Virus record (IMG/VR): IMGVR_UViG_3300020162_002696
Coordinates: 1 to 38,633 of that record
DNA length: 38,633 nt
From: a virus
Direction: 5' to 3' (one strand)
Shown one piece after another: positions 135 to 38,633 of this stretch (its first letter is position 1; each line of letters starts with the position of its first letter). The position numbers were made by a program, and so were the translations under genes. The notes below the pieces were generated by a model. That model was given only the letters and a program-made list of their open reading frames with translations. It searched no databases and was not told the DNA's origin.

Positions 135-203
135 TGGTGGACACCGGGGAATCGAACCCCGTCCGCGATGCCGAAACATCACGTCGAACTCCTATGAGTG
201 CCC
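135..203 (-). ncRNA. tmRNA-like tRNA-like domain lacking a message segment
   Basis: This 69-nt RNA has an encoded CCA, discriminator A and a T-arm (CGGGG, loop TTCGATT, CCCCG). Its acceptor stem GGGCACT/GGTGTCC carries a G3-U70 wobble, the alanyl-tRNA synthetase identity element found in all tmRNAs. In place of a D-arm it has GGAGTTCGACG, matching the tmRNA 5' signature GGATTCGACG, and before the T-arm it has TTTCGG...GGAC as in tmRNA 3' ends. What would be helix 2 is closed on itself: CGTGATG pairs with CATCGCG around the six-base loop TTTCGG, so there is no pseudoknot or tag reading frame inside. It lies last in the RNA array, followed by CCA-ATTTT like its neighbours. It could instead be a highly aberrant tRNA, but U8 and a D-stem are missing. 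Confidence 0.6.
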
Positions 204-320: not shown

Positions 321-395
321 TGGCGGGCAGGCGGGAATCTAACCCACGATCTTTAGCCTATGGGGCTAACGCTTTATACACTAAGCTACTGCTCC
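321..395 (-). tRNA. tRNA with CAT anticodon (Met or Ile2)
   Basis: The 75-nt cloverleaf has D-stem GCTT/AAGC, a five-pair anticodon stem TTAGC/GCTAA with loop CCCATAG (anticodon CAT), T-stem GTGGG/CCCGC and an encoded CCA. Oddities are C instead of the usual U at position 33, A instead of C at T-loop position 56, and an acceptor stem that pairs only if one A is bulged. It may be a decaying elongator tRNA-Met, or a tRNA-Ile2 needing lysidine modification; the sequence does not decide. It sits between the tmRNA-like RNA and an unclassified CCA-ended RNA and shares the CCA-ATTTT 3' flank. Confidence 0.65.
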
Positions 396-403
396 GATGA
401 AAT

Positions 404-492
404 TGGTGGACGCTGCAGACTCTTACGATTGGAGCGCCACCTTAAAATCACCCCCGATGCTTTCGCTTCCATTGGGGTCGAGGTAACTCCCA
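404..492 (-). ncRNA. unclassified CCA-ended structured RNA
   Basis: The segment ends in GTCCACCA followed by ATTT, exactly the 3' context of the four other RNAs in the array, so it is probably processed like them. It is not a recognisable tRNA: there is no T-loop consensus. The 3' end folds as a bulged 9-bp hairpin (GGTGGCGCT with AGCGTCCACC, loop about 18 nt). The 5' half contains a second hairpin, ACCCC(A)ATG with CAT(C)GGGGGT. GGAG...CTCC offers a competing long-range pairing. The 5' boundary is inferred from the start of GGGAGTTACC and could be off by several bases. A degenerate tRNA is the alternative. Confidence 0.35.
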
Positions 493-508
493 TTTATTAT
501 AACAAAAT

Positions 509-594
509 TGGTGGGCAGTCTGGGGAACGATCCCAGCGAGCTGCAAAGCGTCGGATTTACAGTCCGAACCGTCTCCTTAACGGTATACCTACCC
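509..594 (-). tRNA. tRNA-Tyr(GTA)
   Basis: The 86-nt tRNA has acceptor GGGTAG paired with CTGCCC, discriminator A and encoded CCA. The anticodon arm is CGGA, loop CTGTAAA, TCCG (anticodon GTA). It has the long variable arm expected of bacterial tRNA-Tyr (about 13-15 nt) and a perfect T-stem CTGGG/CCCAG. Nothing suggests inactivation. It is co-oriented with the other RNAs and probably shares their promoter at 1080-1098. Confidence 0.9.
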
Positions 595-675
595 ATATAC
601 TCCGATATATCTACGACAGCGGGGTACTGTCATTAACCAAGCGAAGCTTTGATCTTCGATACATCGGAGTAAAAT

Positions 676-752
676 TGGTTGCGGAGGTGGGATTCGAACC
701 CACATGCTTAACGTTATGAGCGTTACGTCTCCCAGTCGACATTCACTCCGCG
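676..752 (-). tRNA. initiator-type tRNA-Met(CAT)
   Basis: The RNA is 77 nt, the length of bacterial initiator tRNA. It begins CGCGGAG and ends CTCCGCAACCA, so position 1 (C) faces A72 without pairing, the hallmark of bacterial initiator tRNA that allows formylation and blocks elongation use. The anticodon loop is CTCATAA on the stem TAACG/CGTTA, and A11 can pair with U24, another initiator trait. The three consecutive G-C pairs of the classical initiator anticodon stem are reduced to two (C30-G40, G31-C39) plus A29-U41. T-arm is GTGGG, loop TTCGAAT, CCCAC. The D-stem is weak and its loop long. Confidence 0.82.
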
Positions 753-861: not shown

Positions 862-977
862 TTGTCTTTTAATGGTAGGCGTTGTCGCATTCAAATCTCT
901 ACCTGCCACGATCGCTTCGAGATTCTCCTTCACTTACCGCACGGGAGCTGAAGCCCCCTTGTCCCATTAAAAGACAA
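862..977. repeat. 14-bp perfect inverted repeat around a structured 88-nt core
   Basis: TTGTCTTTTAATGG at 862-875 is the exact reverse complement of 964-977. The enclosed core, on the minus strand, holds a 6-bp hairpin with tetraloop (GGGGGC-TTCA-GCTCCC) whose loop bases can also pair with a downstream TGAAG, and an AATCTC/GAGATT stem. The rest of the region from 753 to 1070 contains no protein gene. At 781-840 a 7-bp pairing ACGGTAG/CTGCCGT encloses 37 nt. These are features of a structured RNA in the same transcript as the tRNAs. A small inverted-repeat mobile element is possible but I see no target-site duplication. Confidence 0.6.
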
Positions 978-3831: not shown

Positions 3832-3849
3832 ATTATATTCTTGTTAATT
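3832..3849 (-). promoter_or_regulatory. early-type promoter, weak upstream box
   Basis: TATAAT at 3832-3837 lies 6 nt before the ATG at 3825. Four bases further upstream is AATTAACA, a poor match (5 of 8) to the AAGGAACT box seen at other early starts. Geometry predicts a leaderless transcript. Confidence 0.4.
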
Positions 3850-4652
3850 TAGAAATCAACCGTACAATTTTGAGCATTCTTACAGATCAAGCGCCTTACC
3901 TTCGTATCCATTTGGCTTGTTTGTTCAATAATAAATTCAATTTCTTTGGCTGAGAGATGATTTTTGTATTCATGTGGATCAGAGTTTACATAAAGTCCTC
4001 TTTTACCGTCATCAAAAAGCTCATTATGACCAATTAATGTTTCTGGATTTTGTATATTTAAATCAGTATTTAAGAAATTACTTAAATCATTAATTAACAA
4101 ACTTTCATTATTAATATAGTGATCATAATCAATAATAATCTTATTTTTAACATATGGATATATATGGCTAAGCCAATTATAGGTTGTTATTTTTAATCTT
4201 GATGTAGATTCTTCAAAACTCTTAAAAAACCAATCTGCTCCTTCAGCTTTTTCAATTTTAGATCTTTTTATTTCTGAATAAATAGTAGCGCAAGGATTTC
4301 TATATGTAAAAATAAAATATGCATCAGAATAATTTTTAACTAAGTTAGTACAATACTCTACGGTATGGCAATATGTTATAAACTTGTCTCCAAAAAATTC
4401 AAGATTACCTTTGTTTTCGAAATTACCAATAAAGAAATCGTCTATATCTTTTTCAGTTAACCCTTTCCACTTTAGAAACTTTGTATTATATTGATTATTA
4501 ATTTTTTTTCTATGACAGTTATAATAATGATTTGGTTCGTAATCAAAAATTGCTAGTTCATTCATTACAAGTATTTTGGATGAATACGATAATAGTGTAT
4601 TTAATGCCGTACTGCCTGTGCGAGATGCGCCTGTTACTATGATTTTTTTCAT
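3849..4652 (-). CDS. sulfotransferase-like protein
   Basis: The 267-residue protein opens with MKKIIVTGASRTGSTALN, the P-loop-like 5'-phosphosulfate-binding motif (GxxRTGST) of PAPS-dependent sulfotransferases. The segment around residues 113-130 (FIFTYRNPCATIYSEIKRS) fits the 3'-phosphate-binding strand-helix with its RNP and conserved Ser. The family transfers sulfate from PAPS to sugars, lipids or protein tyrosines; the acceptor cannot be read from sequence. It is followed on the same strand by hypothetical genes and preceded by a glycosyltransferase, suggesting sulfation of a glycan. It is very AT-rich. A second, unrelated-looking sulfotransferase lies at 24702. Confidence 0.7.
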   Translation of the reverse strand: MKKIIVTGASRTGSTALNTLLSYSSKILVMNELAIFDYEPNHYYNCHRKKINNQYNTKFLKWKGLTEKDIDDFFIGNFENKGNLEFFGDKFITYCHTVEYCTNLVKNYSDAYFIFTYRNPCATIYSEIKRSKIEKAEGADWFFKSFEESTSRLKITTYNWLSHIYPYVKNKIIIDYDHYINNESLLINDLSNFLNTDLNIQNPETLIGHNELFDDGKRGLYVNSDPHEYKNHLSAKEIEFIIEQTSQMDTKVRRLICKNAQNCTVDF

Positions 4653-7651: not shown

Positions 7652-7839
7652 GATATGATGTATTTTTGTTCTTTTAAATAGTGGATGATGTCATCCTGTT
7701 GTGATTTTGTATAGCTCCTTTTCAGCTTTCTTCTGGCATTTATTGTAGAATAATTCCTGTATGCTTCACCGAAACTGCAATGAAAAACAAAGCCGTGTTT
7801 AGGGAAAAACACATTATTACCTTCTACATAGTAGCGCAT
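7648..7839 (-). CDS. small hypothetical protein
   Basis: The 63-residue product is basic and aromatic (MRYYVEGNNVFFPKHGF at the start). The start overlaps the upstream stop by one base (TAATG) and its own stop overlaps the phosphoesterase start (ATGA), so it sits firmly in the operon. Function not recognised. Confidence 0.6.
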   Translation of the reverse strand: MRYYVEGNNVFFPKHGFVFHCSFGEAYRNYSTINARRKLKRSYTKSQQDDIIHYLKEQKYIIS

Positions 7840-8558
7840 TACATATTATAGTATTGTTCCTTCGCTACAGAAAACCCAAGTCGCTTTGCTTCTTTCGGGG
7901 ATAGTGTTGCCCACCAGCTACCTTTATTAACTGGAGATCCTTCTTTACCAGTATTCTGACATGTCTTTGAACTGAGATATTCTGCAAAGCGAATCATACC
8001 TTCTACATTTTCATCTCCGCCATCAACATAGAATCGCAGAGTACCAAACTTTTCTTTGTATTGGGAGATCTTAACATCTGGCGGTCTTTGAGTGGTATAA
8101 AGTCCTTGTTTGTAAAAGAAGCTAGTAATTCTGGATGTAAAGATACGAACCTTCTTGGAAAACTTTTTATCGATTTCTTCCTGTTGTTTTGATGTCGGCG
8201 AAGCAAATTTTCGAATGATAAATGTACCTTTATACGGGTCAAATTGTCGATTAATTTTAGCTGCGATATATGTCCATACTTTTTGCAGAAAACGCATGGT
8301 TTTCTTATTCGGATTAGGAATCGAACGAAAAGTATTTTTGGTATAGTTTACAATTGCTCCACATAGATTGTCTATAAGAGGCTCCCAACCTTTAGGGCAA
8401 TCATTCCAGCATCTTTGAAACTGCGGCAGCAGTTCTCCATCTTCTCCTTTATAGAAAAGATCGGGATACTTCTTAAATAGGTGTTGCTCAAAGTCAAAAT
8501 CTTCTTTGACTTCTGCTTCGATTTTTTCTTTTAGTTCTTTTACAGTTTTAGATTTCAT
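7839..8558 (-). CDS. conserved phage protein with KEKFGTLRFY motif
   Basis: The product has 239 residues from the ATG at 8558. I prefer this start to 8573 because it gives the TAATATG junction with the upstream gene. The C-terminal part has KISQYKEKFGTLRFYVDGG followed by AEYLSSKTCQNTGKEG, a signature I know from many tailed-phage proteins of unknown function, where paired Cys residues often form a zinc knuckle; only one Cys remains here. The middle is basic (KKVRIFTSRI). Shadow frames at 8003-8242 and 8155-8346 are discounted. Confidence 0.7.
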   Translation of the reverse strand: MKSKTVKELKEKIEAEVKEDFDFEQHLFKKYPDLFYKGEDGELLPQFQRCWNDCPKGWEPLIDNLCGAIVNYTKNTFRSIPNPNKKTMRFLQKVWTYIAAKINRQFDPYKGTFIIRKFASPTSKQQEEIDKKFSKKVRIFTSRITSFFYKQGLYTTQRPPDVKISQYKEKFGTLRFYVDGGDENVEGMIRFAEYLSSKTCQNTGKEGSPVNKGSWWATLSPKEAKRLGFSVAKEQYYNM

Positions 8559-17041: not shown

Positions 17042-18028
17042 TTACCATATAGATTTATACTTCTCTACGTAATATGTTACTATTTCCGGTACACCTCTCG
17101 TAAAAAAATTACGCTGACTATGTAATGGTACTACTTCATCATATACAGTTGTCATTGCATATCTAAAATCGTGACCCATTCTATCTTTTACACTCTCAAT
17201 ATATTCACCGCTTTCGCGTTTATACTCTGGATACTGCTTGATAACCTCATCGATAATAGTCTGCATTATGTTATAGTTATCAATTTCTTCGGTACCGTAG
17301 AGGTTATAAACTCGTCTATGAGATAAGTGACGTAAGACATATAATAGAGCTTTCGCGTGATCCTCTGCGTGTATCCATTCACGGATATTCTTACCGTTTC
17401 CATACATTGGAATATTTTTACCGCCTACAATAGAACGAATAATAGTTGGAATTAATTTCTCATTATCCTGCCTAGGTCCATAATTGTTACAACAGCGCGT
17501 AACTGTAATATCCAAGCCATAAGTACTGTTATATGAAAGAGCAAGTAAATCGGATGATGCCTTTGAAGCTGAGTAGGGCGATCTTGGATTGAGATTAGTT
17601 AACTCAGTAAAGGGTGTATCATCAATTTTAAGATGACCATACACTTCATCTGTAGACACATGTACCATTCTCGCTTTAGGTGTAAATCGGCGCATACCTT
17701 CGAGAATATTAGCTGTACCATTTACATTAGATTCGATAAAGCTGAGAGGATGTGTAATCGATCTATCAACATGCGATTCAGCTGCAAGATGTACGATGTA
17801 ATCAGGTCTGTAAGCTTCGATAATAGTGAATATTTTTTCATCGCAAATATCTATAAAGTAATTAGTCACACGGTCGTCTTTTGAGATATTATTTACAGAA
17901 CTACCAGCGCCCATTTTATCTATATTGATTATTTCAATATTTTTATTTTTAAGGAGTTGCTCGATAACGTAACTCCCAATAAATCCACATCCCCCAGTAA
18001 TCAAGTAACGTGATTTATTCATATGCAT
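17042..18028 (-). CDS. rmlB: dTDP-glucose 4,6-dehydratase (RmlB-like)
   Basis: The protein converts dTDP-glucose to dTDP-4-keto-6-deoxyglucose, the second step of dTDP-sugar synthesis. It is a short-chain dehydrogenase with the NAD fingerprint LITGGCGFIGS, STDEVYGH with the dehydratase Asp-Glu pair after the catalytic Thr, and YSASK with catalytic Tyr and Lys. It has 328 residues, close to normal for RmlB. Two starts are possible (18028 or 18022); the ATGCATATG sequence overlaps the RmlA stop. It lies directly downstream of RmlA. Confidence 0.9.
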   Translation of the reverse strand: MHMNKSRYLITGGCGFIGSYVIEQLLKNKNIEIINIDKMGAGSSVNNISKDDRVTNYFIDICDEKIFTIIEAYRPDYIVHLAAESHVDRSITHPLSFIESNVNGTANILEGMRRFTPKARMVHVSTDEVYGHLKIDDTPFTELTNLNPRSPYSASKASSDLLALSYNSTYGLDITVTRCCNNYGPRQDNEKLIPTIIRSIVGGKNIPMYGNGKNIREWIHAEDHAKALLYVLRHLSHRRVYNLYGTEEIDNYNIMQTIIDEVIKQYPEYKRESGEYIESVKDRMGHDFRYAMTTVYDEVVPLHSQRNFFTRGVPEIVTYYVEKYKSIW

Positions 18029-18752
18029 TGAGACCTACTATCTTATTTGTTCGTTGTTCAATTGCTTGTACTAGGTTGGCACAAGATAATAAATCATCAT
18101 GCGTACCGCAATCGAACCAAAATCCATCTAATTGTTGAACTTTAACTCTATTAATATCGTCCATAGCTTTAATTAAATCAACAATTTCTAGCTCACCTCT
18201 TAGTGAAGGAGTCAATGCCGGAGCTATATCCACTACAAAATTTTCAAATACATACAAACCTACTACAGCATCATTACTAATAAATTCAACCGGTTTCTCT
18301 ACAAGCAAATTAATGTGACCACTATCTGTTAATTTAACAACACCGTACGATTCAGGTTGCTTTACCTTATAAGTAAAAATAGTATTAGGTTTAGCTTCAA
18401 TACACTCTGATGTAATAAATACATTATCACCTAAAATTAACGCTACATCATCATCTCCAATAAAGTCCCTACCTACAATAAATGCATCTGGTAAACCTCT
18501 CGGTGAGCTCTGTACCGTGTAAGAAAGGTTCAAACCATAATGTTTGCCGTCTTTTAATTGATCTTCAAATAGCCTGCATTGTTGTGGATCAGCTGTGATA
18601 ATAAGAATATCCTTAATACCCATACTCTTTAAAGTATCAAGCGGGTAATATATCATAGGTTTGTTATATACACAATGTAATTGCTTTGATACTGCTCTTG
18701 TGGTAGGTAAAAGTCTAGTACCGTTACCTCCTGCGAGACATATGCCTTTCAT
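18015..18752 (-). CDS. rmlA: glucose-1-phosphate thymidylyltransferase (RmlA-like)
   Basis: Makes dTDP-glucose from dTTP and glucose-1-phosphate. The N-terminus has the nucleotidyltransferase signature GGNGTRLLPTTRAVSKQL, followed by NKPMIYYPL (sugar-1-phosphate loop), ILGDNVF (metal-binding Asp) and VEKP. At 245 residues it is shorter than typical long-form RmlA (about 290), lacking part of the C-terminal helical region that forms the regulatory site, so allosteric control by end product may be lost. Its leader carries (CAA)6. It overlaps the RmlB start. Confidence 0.88.
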   Translation of the reverse strand: MKGICLAGGNGTRLLPTTRAVSKQLHCVYNKPMIYYPLDTLKSMGIKDILIITADPQQCRLFEDQLKDGKHYGLNLSYTVQSSPRGLPDAFIVGRDFIGDDDVALILGDNVFITSECIEAKPNTIFTYKVKQPESYGVVKLTDSGHINLLVEKPVEFISNDAVVGLYVFENFVVDIAPALTPSLRGELEIVDLIKAMDDINRVKVQQLDGFWFDCGTHDDLLSCANLVQAIEQRTNKIVGLNAYE

Positions 18753-18765
18753 ATTATTATTAATA

Positions 18766-18783
18766 GTTGTTGTTGTTGTTGTT
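18766..18783 (-). repeat. (CAA)6 leader repeat upstream of rmlA
   Basis: Six perfect GTT units on the plus strand, read CAA on the coding strand, end 14 nt before the ATG at 18752. An unstructured CAA-rich leader fits a long untranslated region, unusual in a genome where most starts are leaderless. The number of units could vary by slippage. Confidence 0.85.
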
Positions 18784-18821
18784 GTGTTAAGATAGAGTCT
18801 AGTGACCTGTATGTTTAGGTA

Positions 18822-19676
18822 CTAATCTATTTTAATGTTAGCCAAAGCATAATCAAGTGCTTGCTTTTCAGTCTGAATATTAAAGTCAGGAAACAAGGAT
18901 GTAAGTTTATCAATTGACAATACGCAATTAGATCTTGGTGCTGCCATTTTAAGTAATTTAGGGTCAACATAAACCCATTTAGGATTATCCATTCCATATG
19001 CAGTCATAAGATCTGTTACCTGCATAGTATCAAGAGCATCCGGGTTAACAAAATTAATAGTATTAACAATAGATAGGTCGACCTTATTATCTATTAAGTA
19101 TTCTATAAACATACACAAATCTGGTACATATGTTTTAGAATTCTTAAAATTAATCAACTGATCATATTTGTATATCTTAGTAAGATAGCTACGCGGGTTA
19201 TAATCATCACAGAAGGGCATACGAACACGAATAATGCAACCGTAATCATTAAGTGTCTCAAAAGCGTGCTTCGATTTTGAGTATGTTGATGAAGCGTCAA
19301 ATAATCCGAAATTAGGCTCATCTTGCTCTGACCATTCCTTTTCATATCCACTATATATACAACCTGAGGAAATATGTATATATTTAATACTTAGTTGTTT
19401 ACATATATTACTAATATTAAGTGGAATAACTACATTAAGATCCCAACATTCTTTCTTTCTAGTTTCGCCCTCATCTACATTAGGACGTCCAGTAAATCCA
19501 GAACAATTAACAATATATTCAATGTCATGATTTAAAATAAATTTATGTAAAAGAGCTTGATTGGAATAATCAAGCTGTCTACGAGATACGATACGATAAT
19601 TGTGTTTATCAGGATTAACCCAAGACATAATAGATTGACCTACATATCCAGATCCAATAATTAATACTTTACTCAT
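18822..19676 (-). CDS. fused-type NDP-4-keto-6-deoxyglucose 3,5-epimerase/4-reductase
   Basis: The 284-residue short-chain dehydrogenase has a GSGYVGQS cofactor loop, then VNCSGFTGRPNVDEGETRK, SSGCIYSG and catalytic YSKSK, then RVRMPFCDDYNPRSYLTK. These segments resemble plant and giant-virus UER/NRS enzymes (VVHAAG-TGRPNVD, GCI, YSKTK, LRVRMP), which carry out both 3,5-epimerisation and 4-reduction, more closely than bacterial RmlD. If so, no separate RmlC is needed and RmlA, RmlB and this protein suffice for NDP-L-rhamnose. It precedes rmlA, separated by about 70 bases. A plain RmlD-like reductase is the alternative. Confidence 0.7.
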   Translation of the reverse strand: MSKVLIIGSGYVGQSIMSWVNPDKHNYRIVSRRQLDYSNQALLHKFILNHDIEYIVNCSGFTGRPNVDEGETRKKECWDLNVVIPLNISNICKQLSIKYIHISSGCIYSGYEKEWSEQDEPNFGLFDASSTYSKSKHAFETLNDYGCIIRVRMPFCDDYNPRSYLTKIYKYDQLINFKNSKTYVPDLCMFIEYLIDNKVDLSIVNTINFVNPDALDTMQVTDLMTAYGMDNPKWVYVDPKLLKMAAPRSNCVLSIDKLTSLFPDFNIQTEKQALDYALANIKID

Positions 19677-24701: not shown

Positions 24702-25502
24702 ATGAAAAACTTTGCAATGGTCTCCGGGTTACCTAGATCAGGATCTACTCTTTTAATGAATATTTTAGGACAGCATCCTGATGTTCATGTAACGCCTACT
24801 TCTGGTATACACGAAGTTTTATGGACAACGCGTAATAATTGGAATACATTTCAAGAGCATCAAGCAGATAAGGTAGCATCTAACCCTAAAAATCTTCAAC
24901 GTGTACTTCAGGCAATGTTGAATTCCTATCACGATACAGATAAACAAATTGTTATTGATAAGCATCGTTCTTGGATTCATAGTATTGAGTTACTTGAATA
25001 TGTTTTAGGTAAAAAGGCTAAAATAATTGTTCCAGTTCGTTCAATTACTGAAATACTAGCTTCATTCGAACAATTACACAGAAAAAATGCTCATATTGCT
25101 AATGTACCTGGAGATTTTTTAATCTCACAAACAACAGAAGGTAGAGTTAATCATTGGTTATCTAATTCAGGTGAAGTAGGTATTGCTTATTCTAGAATAA
25201 AAGATGCCTTTCAAAAAGGGTACAATAATAGATTAATGTTGGTTGAGTTTGATGAACTGACTCAGCAACCGAAACTCACGATGGAGAGGATATGGGAGTT
25301 TCTAGATATAGATGCACCAGCACACGATTTTAATAATATAACCCAAATCACACAAGAAGATGATAGTGTAATTGGAATTCACGGACTTCATGATATTAGA
25401 TCTAAAGTAGAACCTATAATAAATAAGGCATATTCTATTCTTGGTAATAATATTGTAAATCAATATCAAAATTCGGAATTTTGGAGATTTACACGTAAAT
25501 AA
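24702..25502 (+). CDS. sulfotransferase-like protein
   Basis: The 266-residue protein begins MVSGLPRSGSTLLMNILGQH, the canonical 5'-phosphosulfate loop of PAPS-dependent sulfotransferases, and later has IIVPVRSITEILASFEQLHR, fitting the 3'-phosphate-binding strand-helix (R plus S). This type occurs in marine T4-like phages. The acceptor is unknown, but its position straight after the repeat fibre suggests fibre or surface-glycan modification. The upstream TGTAAGTA, 5 nt before the ATG, may be a degenerate late promoter. Confidence 0.75.
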   Translation: MKNFAMVSGLPRSGSTLLMNILGQHPDVHVTPTSGIHEVLWTTRNNWNTFQEHQADKVASNPKNLQRVLQAMLNSYHDTDKQIVIDKHRSWIHSIELLEYVLGKKAKIIVPVRSITEILASFEQLHRKNAHIANVPGDFLISQTTEGRVNHWLSNSGEVGIAYSRIKDAFQKGYNNRLMLVEFDELTQQPKLTMERIWEFLDIDAPAHDFNNITQITQEDDSVIGIHGLHDIRSKVEPIINKAYSILGNNIVNQYQNSEFWRFTRK

Positions 25503-36125: not shown

Positions 36126-38633
36126 GTGTTAAGTAATTCACAGACATCACCTGACGCAGCATTAATGCTGAGTGCACTTAGAGAAGCTTCAGCAGCTACA
36201 GACGAAGCTGTAGGCTTACCGGAAGATGAGCTTGATCGGTTAAGGAATAATAATATTATACCTAAAAGTAGAGAATTGGAGAGTGATGTCGATCCAGTTC
36301 TAACAGGTAATGAAAAAAGAAGAGCTTATAACTTTGGACAAGAATTAGCTAGATCATTTTATGATTTCGCACAAAAGCATAAAGAGGATTCTAAAGAAAA
36401 GACACTTATACAGTCAAAAGCTGCAAATGTAAAAGAAGCATCTTCAGGTAATGAAAACCAGATAGGTAATATAGATAAAAGCAAGATTGGATTTTGGGCT
36501 AAATTAATTGCTGCAACTATTATTATAGGAATGCTTATATGGAATTATTTTGGTCCTATTGGCGCTGATATATCTAAATTTATTACAAAATTACCTCAAT
36601 TCCTTAAAGACAGTGTCAGCTTTAAAGGTTTATTTAAATTTTTAAGTGAAACAAAAATAGGTAAAGCTGTAAGTGAATTTATAGCGCCTATAAGTAAACT
36701 TTTTACCAGCATTAAAGCATTTTTCGGTATAGGTACGAAAGCTACTACGGAAATTGTAGAAGGAACTAGTAAGTTAAAAGGATTTACAGGTATATTGAAA
36801 GCAGCTACTTCGACAATAGGTAAATTTTTATCCAGATGGATTAGGAGACTTCCTATAATAGGTGGTATACTTGGTATGGTATACGCGTATAAAAGTTTTA
36901 AAGCAGGTAACTGGGTAAGAGGTACAGTTGAGATGTTATCAGCTGTATTATCCTTCTCCGGCGTTGGATTACCAATTTCCTTAATTTTGGACGGTGCATT
37001 ATTAATATATGACTTAATGAAGGCTGAAGGATCTAGTGAAGTCGCTGCATCTAGCACCGCTATGAAAGTCGGTATTGGTACATCACGAGCCTTATTACCA
37101 CTCCTTACCAAGACAGGCTCTAAAATAGGCCTAAAGCTAGGTAAAGTATTAAAGTTTATACCGTTTATAGGAGGATTATTTAATTTTGCTAGTGCATACC
37201 TACGCTTTCAAGAGGGTCAGTGGTTTAGAGGTACACTTGAAATTATTGCTGGTATAGCAGCCTTATCAGGAGTAGCATCACCATTAGCATGGGTAATAGA
37301 TGGAGCACTTATTCTTAGTGATTTAATTGAACCTAAAGTAGGAGCAGAGGTCGCAGGTGGCGCCGCTGCTAAAGGCGTTGTATTAGGTGCATCTATATTA
37401 CCTTTACTTACAAAGTTTGGCCTAAAAATTGGTACAAAATTACTAAAAGTATTAAAATTTATACCGGTAGTAGGTGCTTTAGCAAATTTTGCATTGTCGT
37501 ATATACGTTTTAAAGAAGGTGATTGGCTAGGTGGAATATTTGAACTTATAGCCGGTATTGCTGCATTTATACCGGGATATGGTACAGCGGTCGCGTATAT
37601 TATAGATGGTGGTTTAATTCTTTATGATCTACTTAAATCTGATAAAGCACAAACATCAGAAGAACCTAAAAAAGGTAAGATCCAGCCTGGTGTTTGGGAT
37701 AAACTAAAAAGCTGGGTAGGTACAAAGCTAATAAATTCATTATGGTATACTCCTGGTGTTTCGAGCTTACTCTATATCGGTAGAGGAATATCTAAGCTAG
37801 TTAATGGAGACTTTAGAGGTGGTTTACTGGATTTAGCTAGTTCGTTACTTGCGGTTACCGGCGGCAAACTGTTAGTTGATTTTGTACTCAACGCCCTAGG
37901 AATAATTGAGAGTACAGAAAAGACAGTAACCTCAGAAGTATCTACGAGTACTAACACTGTTGGTATTTTTGATAAACTAAAAAGCTGGGTAGGTGTAAAG
38001 TTTGTAGGTGCGTTGTGGTATACTCCCGGTGTTTCGAGCTTACTCTATATCGGTAGAGGAATATCTAAGCTAGTTAGTGGTGACTTTAAAAGCGGCTTAC
38101 TTGATTTAGCTAGTTCGTTACTAGCGTTAACTGGTGGAAAGCTGTTAGTTGACTTTATCTTAAATGCTTTAGGTTTGATTGAGAGTCCGGAAAAGATAGC
38201 AACACCTGAAGTATCTACAAGTACTAGCACCAGTGGTATTTTCGATAAATTAAAAAGCTGGGTTGGTACAAAGCTAATAAATTCTTTGTGGTATATTCCT
38301 GGTATTTCAAGTCTACTCTATATCGGTAGAGGAATATCTAAGCTAGTTAAAGGAGACTTTAAAGGCGGTTTACTTAATTTAGCTAGTTCGTTACTAGCGT
38401 TCACTGGTGGTAAGATGTTAGTTGATTTTGTACTCAACGCTCTAGGAATAATTGAGAGTACAGAAAAAACTGCTGAGCCTAAATCATTAAAAGCTAATAC
38501 AGTTAATGCTGATAATATTATATCTAAGTTAATAGAAGGTGTTATTGGGTCGCTACTGTCTGTAGTAAGTGGTATATTTAATTGGATAGGTACGTTAAAA
38601 GATAAACTCGCTAATGCACTAGAAGGTGTTAAA
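36126..38633 (+). CDS. tape-measure-like repeat protein, 3' truncated
   Basis: The frame is open from GTG at 36126 to the window end (836 codons). After a hydrophilic 130-residue head there is a membrane-like segment (FWAKLIAATIIIGMLIWNYF). Three diverged modules of about 100 residues follow (LPLLTKTGSKIGLKLGKVL, FIPFIGGLFNFASAY, GTLEIIAGIAALSG and so on), then three near-identical 91-residue modules (FDKLKSWVGTKLINSLWYTP, LLYIGRGISKLV). Gly-rich amphipathic repeats of this kind are typical of tail tape-measure proteins, whose length sets the tail length. A baseplate-hub component (gp29-like) is equivalent in T4. Minus-strand frames here are shadows. Confidence 0.6.
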   Translation, partial: MLSNSQTSPDAALMLSALREASAATDEAVGLPEDELDRLRNNNIIPKSRELESDVDPVLTGNEKRRAYNFGQELARSFYDFAQKHKEDSKEKTLIQSKAANVKEASSGNENQIGNIDKSKIGFWAKLIAATIIIGMLIWNYFGPIGADISKFITKLPQFLKDSVSFKGLFKFLSETKIGKAVSEFIAPISKLFTSIKAFFGIGTKATTEIVEGTSKLKGFTGILKAATSTIGKFLSRWIRRLPIIGGILGMVYAYKSFKAGNWVRGTVEMLSAVLSFSGVGLPISLILDGALLIYDLMKAEGSSEVAASSTAMKVGIGTSRALLPLLTKTGSKIGLKLGKVLKFIPFIGGLFNFASAYLRFQEGQWFRGTLEIIAGIAALSGVASPLAWVIDGALILSDLIEPKVGAEVAGGAAAKGVVLGASILPLLTKFGLKIGTKLLKVLKFIPVVGALANFALSYIRFKEGDWLGGIFELIAGIAAFIPGYGTAVAYIIDGGLILYDLLKSDKAQTSEEPKKGKIQPGVWDKLKSWVGTKLINSLWYTPGVSSLLYIGRGISKLVNGDFRGGLLDLASSLLAVTGGKLLVDFVLNALGIIESTEKTVTSEVSTSTNTVGIFDKLKSWVGVKFVGALWYTPGVSSLLYIGRGISKLVSGDFKSGLLDLASSLLALTGGKLLVDFILNALGLIESPEKIATPEVSTSTSTSGIFDKLKSWVGTKLINSLWYIPGISSLLYIGRGISKLVKGDFKGGLLNLASSLLAFTGGKMLVDFVLNALGIIESTEKTAEPKSLKANTVNADNIISKLIEGVIGSLLSVVSGIFNWIGTLKDKLANALEGVK
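37698..38490 (+). repeat. 273-bp direct coding repeats (three copies)
   Basis: Units start at 37698, 37971 and 38244, an exact 273-bp (91-codon) period. Similarity is high in most of each unit and drops in the linker before GIFDKLK. Older, more diverged modules of similar kind lie upstream (about 36840-37660). Confidence 0.92.

Follow-up and report, generated by a model that had tools for sequence, protein, structure and literature searches.

We report that a 38.6-kb virus record from IMG/VR (IMGVR_UViG_3300020162_002696, whose full 38,633 nucleotides are the window analyzed here) carries a 69-nt gene whose sequence supports its identification as a phage-encoded tmRNA cut to its tRNA-like domain. 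RNAs of this kind, hereafter minis, are spread across phages: a descriptor applied to IMG/VR matches recovered at least 77 distinct sequences consisting of the tRNA-like domain only, 66–84 nt long and nearly all in viral contigs. The best explanation we can offer for the window RNA is that it may serve as a decoy blunting host trans-translation, a proposal whose chances we regard as evenly balanced.

The window encodes a T4-type terminase, a tail sheath and head proteins, and its terminase shares 33–37% identity with the terminases of cyanophages, Sinorhizobium phage phiM9 and a Pseudoalteromonas phage. The mini, separated by 135 bases from the record's end, belongs to an RNA array at ~1–1180 on the minus strand that also contains two tRNAs detected by Rfam (Table 1). 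When the window was searched with cmscan against all Rfam 15 families, the tmRNA family RF00023 was the best match at 135–203 (37.1 bits, E 4.9e-13), in an alignment that spans model positions 1–374 and passes over the entire mRNA-like domain. The score lies below the RF00023 gathering score of 47 and discriminates only modestly, because matches of tRNA size elsewhere in these records score 25–32 bits on this model; the identification therefore rests on the tRNA model finding nothing here, on the motifs and on relatives that covary.

Table 1. Features of the mini-tmRNA and of the neighboring tRNA genes in the window
Feature	Position	Strand	Remarks
Mini-tmRNA (tRNA-like domain only)	135..203	-	69 nt including the encoded CCA; RF00023 match, covarying relatives
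Acceptor stem, 5' strand GGGCACT	197..203	-	Pairs with 139-145
Acceptor stem, 3' strand GGTGTCC	139..145	-	Compensatory changes at pairs 4, 5 and 6
D-arm analogue CATAGGAG + TTCGA	184..196	-	TTCGA invariant in the compact class
Helix 2, 5' strand CGTGATG	177..183	-	Three helix-2 pairs changed on both sides
Helix 2, 3' strand CATCGCG	164..170	-	Pairs with CGTGATG, 7 bp
Loop TTTCGG, six bases	171..176	-	Replaces the ~300-base mRNA-like domain
T arm: stem GGGG/CCCC, loop TTCGATT	146..160	-	4-bp stem; 11-bp acceptor/T stack
3' end ACCA	135..138	-	DNA-encoded; seen in the sequence
Neighboring tRNA (CAT anticodon)	322..395	-	Same array
Neighboring tRNA (CAT anticodon by eye)	682..749	-	RF00005, 34.3 bits; same array

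Read from the minus strand, the RNA is GGGCACT-CATAGGAG-UUCGA-CGUGAUG-UUUCGG-CAUCGCG-GAC-GGGG-UUCGAUU-CCCC-GGUGUCC-ACCA, and its minimum free energy fold has the same tmRNA-type structure (-28.3 kcal/mol, z -1.98). The acceptor holds G3·U70, the alanine identity pair; the D-analogue is of the GG..UUCGAC type and forms no D stem, and GGAC stands between helix 2 and the T arm. Nothing lies between the strands of helix 2 except the six-base loop: the mRNA-like domain, resume codon and tag are absent from the RNA, as are pseudoknots PK1–PK4. A first-pass annotation of the same letters had proposed an alanine-accepting domain only, in a phage, and this reading is borne out by the covariance-model match, by covariation and by the relatives. 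Its coordinates were accurate to the base. The G3-U70 acceptor, TTCGACG, GGAC and T arm that it listed recur in the sequence, the RF00023 match and the fold; helix 2 closes over six bases in both the fold and the RF00023 alignment; and its remark that no tag or pseudoknots lie inside agrees with the mRNA-like domain being skipped. The Infernal search of the minus strand with Rfam that it recommended is the one reported above, matching RF00023 end to end. It went astray in taking TTTCGG for a tmRNA signature: these bases are the helix-2 loop, so their likeness to E. coli TTTCGGAC is not evidence. It also did not mention that the acceptor/T stack measures 11 bp (7+4) rather than 12.

Could the gene be no more than an ordinary tRNA that folds unusually? 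It sits in a tRNA array, and RF00023 does match tRNA-sized sequences with up to 32 bits. However, the tRNA model RF00005, which found both array tRNAs, returned nothing either at 135–203 or at the corresponding place in six relatives, even with the E limit raised to 10, so the covariance search did not return the ordinary tRNA that the first-pass annotation had named as a way to be wrong; ARAGORN called neither a tRNA nor a tmRNA at 135–203. There is no D stem, and helix 2, with 7 bp and a six-base loop, leaves no anticodon loop. We reject this reading, and its probability is close to nil. A full-length tmRNA assembled from neighboring segments, the other outcome named there, did not appear either, since the only full-length tmRNA among the relatives, described below, is a separate gene. 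Permuted tmRNA models (RF04321, RF02544) were rejected because the gene order is the standard 5'-to-3' one, and the match to RF04321 is confined to the T arm (12.8 bits); the one other competing family, mascRNA/menRNA (RF01684), reached 21.1 bits, below its cut-off of 42.5.

The compact form of the window RNA recurs in six further viral contigs: L082/L221 (record G034), L040/L220 (G015), L213/L222 (G048, 140 kb), L065/L224 (G028), L073/L225 (G031) and L033/L223 (G012). In all seven members a 4-bp T stem follows GGAC, giving an acceptor/T stack of 11 bp where other minis have 12, and all seven hold G3·U70. When the seven are laid on the structure given above, 96.3% of cells are paired and 12 differ on both strands, with a covariation score of 0.333; not one of 500 shuffles matches these three values, and slid structures are 39–53% paired. 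RNAalifold alone recovers the same helices; helix 2 and the acceptor stem both contain compensatory changes. The window mini is identical to that of G034 (L221) at 69/69 positions and to that of G015 at 68/69, the single difference preserving the pair, and outside the RNA array these two contigs share no nucleotide similarity with the window except one 42-bp match. Downstream of its mini, L221 also carries a repeated motif, (T)AG.GCCAGTCCTGC...ATGGAC, in about three copies at ~7700–8300 (+).

Beyond this class, we scanned with an exact pattern, TTCGACG...GGAC...GGGTTCGA, that leaves the acceptor and helix 2 unconstrained, and with a relaxed one, finding 105 and 118 IMG/VR stretches, respectively. 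Among 118 distinct pattern matches in all fetched DNA, 96 have all seven acceptor pairs, against about 17 expected after re-pairing, and 65 have all seven helix-2 pairs, against 3.5. GG precedes TT[CT]GA in each of the 96 fully paired matches, and those lacking full acceptor pairing come nearly all from bacterial genomes. The descriptor returned 78 unique minis, 77 once a misregistered entry was dropped. Scanning with exact patterns makes this a lower bound on distinct forms, and a single virus may be represented by more than one contig. In a non-redundant set of 48 minis less than 88% alike, base pairing is complete in the acceptor (336/336 cells; re-pairing null 259, sd 4.8) and the T stem (240/240; null 182, sd 4.3) and nearly so in helix 2 (275/288; null 173, sd 6.4). 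Helix 2, the T stem and acceptor pairs 4–7 covary, the latter with 3–5 pair types each, while G·U occupies pair 3 in 48/48. Because the descriptor demanded at least 6/7 acceptor and 5/6 helix-2 pairs, the unselected 118 matches are the fairer set for pairing and the 48 minis for variation. The D region varies in length and MAFFT misplaces the 5' acceptor of the 48 minis; pairs were counted on anchored pieces.

Most minis have a longer helix-2 arm with a small hairpin cap (AAGCC-NNNN-GGNAC type), and a bare short helix-2 loop is found in the window class, L022 and L124. RF00023 matches minis end to end in 53/53 records, above its cut-off in 47 (51–81 bits), and the six below it are the window class. 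Folding energy alone separates minis weakly (z -0.8 to -3.8). A scan of genome contigs gave 22 matches, among them three minis (L120, L124, L126), most of the others being, by eye, 3' ends of full-length genes or chance. L120, from a Prochlorococcus single-cell record, has the same mini as the viral contig of L042, and the contig of L126 carries phage-like genes. Several candidate calls were set aside. The long "tmRNAs" that ARAGORN drew across the L031, L079 and L206 minis were judged spurious, joining a mini 3' end to a distant, unpaired-looking 5' end with an unrecognized tag; so was its permuted tmRNA across the L134 mini, again with an unrecognized tag. A Vibrio match, D239 (35 bits, no UUCGAC), and a DSS3P8 match (21 bits, by eye a tRNA-Ala) were excluded from the mini count.

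Minis are also present, unannotated, in cultured phages: six that infect Streptomyces (LuckySocke, GiJojo, pSt2308, Alone3, BRock and Shaeky; those of Alone3 and GiJojo on BLAST evidence alone) and Stenotrophomonas virus Jojan60. The LuckySocke and GiJojo copies are identical. Phages with a BLAST match to the T arm only were rejected: in PA_L9, XacN1, Rb1, DLP_6, RpAliso, QDWS595, QDWS359, S-CRM01, GMA2, phi40:1 and Nappy, Rfam identifies full or permuted tmRNAs, and in the others plain tRNAs. As a separate observation, permuted tmRNAs above the RF04321 cut-off, with no tmRNA annotation in the fetched stretches, occur in seven loci (L135, L217, L230, L231, L232, L233 and L235) from cultured phages of Pseudomonas, Alcaligenes, Xanthomonas, Stenotrophomonas and Ruegeria. 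Gordonia phage GMA2 further encodes a Pistol ribozyme (L234 1042–1098, +; 56.8 bits, cut-off 34.5) inside its phage tRNA array, adjoining the full-length tmRNA.

No SmpB gene was detected in the window or in 50 mini-carrying records, by a search that was positive in 10/10 control bacterial genomes, and no permuted tmRNA exceeded the cut-off in the 50 records. Among the viral records searched, a full-length one-piece tmRNA is present in G015 only (L219 4318–4622, -). It is 305 nt long, scores 120.5 bits, encodes the tag GKNNVVDSGLALAA and shares its strand with the mini, from which it lies 7.5 kb downstream. The acceptors of the two genes, GGGCACG/CGTGTCC in the full-length tmRNA and GGGCACT/GGTGTCC in the mini, are near-identical, which hints at a common origin or at matched charging. 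A mini without a full-length tmRNA is found in contigs of 130–140 kb (G014, G016, G048) and in the complete genomes of LuckySocke, BRock and Jojan60. The bacterial assemblies G038 and G050 each possess a full tmRNA of their own, located on different contigs.

Reduction of a phage tmRNA to the tRNA-like domain has been seen before, in one published phage. The tmRNA of mycobacteriophage DS6A, by its description, consists of hardly anything beyond the tRNA-like domain and has no tag frame (Mao et al., 2009, as cited in PMC4131195 and PMC11915505), which, compared by description, applies to the window RNA as well; the latter differs in coming from a T4-like virus and in its six-base helix-2 loop, its 11-bp stack and its seven-member class. 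A DS6A-like RNA inhibits tmRNA in E. coli (PMC4131195, PMC11915505), even in uncharged form, in the only functional test known from the literature (PMC4131195). The putative role that the first-pass annotation gave the window RNA, occupying SmpB, EF-Tu or stalled ribosomes, has in DS6A a published precedent, one that it did not cite. Out of 97,179 sequences in a 2025 tmRNA database, nine are "standard, no CDS" of any origin, one of them named as coming from a phage (PMC11915505).

The window RNA shares G3·U70, GG..UUCGAC, helix 2, GGAC, the T arm and CCA with the standard bacterial tmRNA (RF00023), whereas the mRNA-like domain, resume codon, tag and pseudoknots are gone and its length is 69 instead of ~300–400 nt. 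Mitochondrial tagless tmRNAs have likewise lost the tag frame but are usually permuted, while the window gene keeps the standard order; they are organellar, with a nuclear SmpB, and that of Jakoba libera is re-permuted (PMC11915505). Plastid tmRNAs of Mallomonadaceae, which are ~65 bp and so near the window RNA in size, have also lost the tag frame and are organellar too (PMC11915505). Phage full-length tmRNAs (the Bxz1 group, Streptomyces phages and permuted ones such as Melnitz, PMC9004378) are phage-carried and often sit in tRNA arrays, yet encode a tag where the mini has none; among the viral records searched, both forms occur together only in G015. What appears to be new is the breadth, the compact 11-bp class and the invariance of G3·U70; these, and the coexistence in G015, had no report in the mainly open-access literature searched.

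How might such an RNA act? In the explanation we consider best, host tRNA-processing enzymes would cut the 69-nt RNA from the tRNA array, the host AlaRS would charge it with alanine through the invariant G3·U70, and the charged RNA would bind host SmpB and EF-Tu, competing for SmpB and stalled ribosomes against the full-length tmRNA of the host. Because an RNA without a tag frame cannot tag or resume, the nascent chain would stay untagged and the ribosome would not be returned to a message, blunting host trans-translation in infection. This explanation draws on the structure and model match, the covariation in the compact class and in the wider set, the lack of SmpB in the records searched and the near-identity of the RNA between otherwise dissimilar genomes. 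We infer the steps of processing, alanylation and SmpB and EF-Tu binding; the inhibitory outcome is the most likely one by likeness to the work on the DS6A-like RNA in E. coli. That published inhibition needs no alanylation, yet G3·U70 is invariant, so plain SmpB titration is probably not the whole account. An uncharged sponge would not need a pair that never varies; selection is therefore probably on the charged form, which would mean EF-Tu binding and ribosome entry, and the invariance suggests that alanylation matters beyond SmpB titration. Counting against a decoy is G015, where a tagged full-length tmRNA of its own beside the mini would be odd if the virus were only switching off trans-translation. 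The 11-bp stack of the window class, for its part, might weaken EF-Tu or SmpB binding. More tentatively, and as a possibility we would not bet on, many phage lineages may carry an alanylated, minimal, tagless device for ribosome entry that is bound by SmpB, takes the nascent chain on stalled ribosomes and diverts or ends rescue, going beyond the sequestering of SmpB, the tmRNA having been repeatedly stripped to its core, sometimes beside the phage's own full-length tmRNA.

The same invariance of G3·U70 across 48 diverse minis, since it implies that charging matters where a pure SmpB sponge would not need it, could also fit a role in rescue itself: the charged mini with SmpB would enter stalled ribosomes and take the nascent chain, after which the ribosome falls apart or the peptidyl-RNA is hydrolyzed, recycling ribosomes without the cost of tagging and proteolysis. 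Tagless mitochondrial tmRNAs, retained alongside a targeted SmpB (PMC11915505), would be a precedent, whereas the sole functional test in the literature showed inhibition of tmRNA, even by an RNA that was not charged (PMC4131195). We also know of no release step for a tRNA-like domain lacking a resume codon. Such tagless rescue is on the unlikely side, and a charged decoy that jams rescue is favored over it. In G015, whose mini is one base from the window's, the nearby tagged tmRNA with its near-identical acceptor would suit a mini that partners a phage full-length tmRNA, perhaps regulating it or acting as a timer, instead of acting against the host's; the virus is alone among the viral records searched in having both forms, and the large contigs and complete genomes with a mini only speak against this quite improbable arrangement. 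An invariant G3·U70 without an anticodon would equally suit an alanine donor outside rescue, feeding C-terminal tailing or an aminoacyl transferase, for instance. The retention of UUCGAC, GGAC and helix 2 points instead to SmpB or the ribosome, and incidental inspection showed no partner enzyme; we consider such a donor very unlikely.

Some array tRNAs score low and the mini falls below the Rfam cut-off, as a decaying, functionless tmRNA remnant might, but the identity to L221 at every position, compensatory changes over the seven relatives and the distinct intact versions elsewhere, at least 77 of them, are hard to reconcile with decay; covariation disfavors a pseudogene, and we hold this reading highly improbable. 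Phages integrate at ssrA, and the attachment-site copies keep only its 3' end. A host ssrA fragment of this sort in a temperate phage would account for the tyrosine integrase found ~0.5–1.1 kb from the mini in five temperate-looking contigs (G029, G032, G010, G024, G044), a proximity that may possibly reflect a link to ssrA attachment sites, and for one BLAST match lying under an annotated attR. However, 42 of the 50 mini records have no tyrosine integrase, the window virus is T4-like, and, unlike a 3'-only copy, the gene retains its 5' acceptor, D-analogue and helix 2, all of which covary. With a complete, covarying tRNA-like domain in phages that lack an integrase, an attachment site is scarcely credible.

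If minis act on trans-translation, as the decoy explanation would have it, countering or rerouting host ribosome rescue would be a strategy common among phages. Charged, on-ribosome action can be tested directly against a plain SmpB sponge by way of the invariant alanine identity pair, and since cultured Streptomyces phages carry minis, testing needs no uncultured virus.

The array and the rest of the window hold several further features. A gene resembling tRNA-Tyr, with anticodon GTA, a long variable arm and CCA in the DNA, is recognizable by eye at ~511–594 (-); it was missed by ARAGORN and by the Rfam cut-off, and a tRNA-Tyr is called in the same place in L220 and L221. Four non-tRNA segments between the tRNAs, at 20–134, 212–314, 755–845 and 876–976 (-), are conserved in L220, L221 and L222, with 74–98% DNA identity over aligned stretches; they have no Rfam match, and their folding z is near zero except for 20–134 (-2.0). 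The T4 tRNA cluster also has stable RNAs without a known role. At 603–666 (-), between two tRNA genes, lies a segment with a compact three-way-junction fold (-21.1 kcal/mol, z -3.84) and no Rfam match, and at 404–494 (-) one whose 3' end, GCGTCCACCA, resembles that of a tRNA or mini-tmRNA, with no cloverleaf recognizable. Outside the array, this T4-like virus encodes two sulfotransferase-like proteins and nucleotide-sugar genes (3849–4652, 17042–19676 and 24702–25502), and a large ORF at the right end contains long in-frame repeats at 37688–38470, with units of ~273 bases at 82–89% DNA identity.
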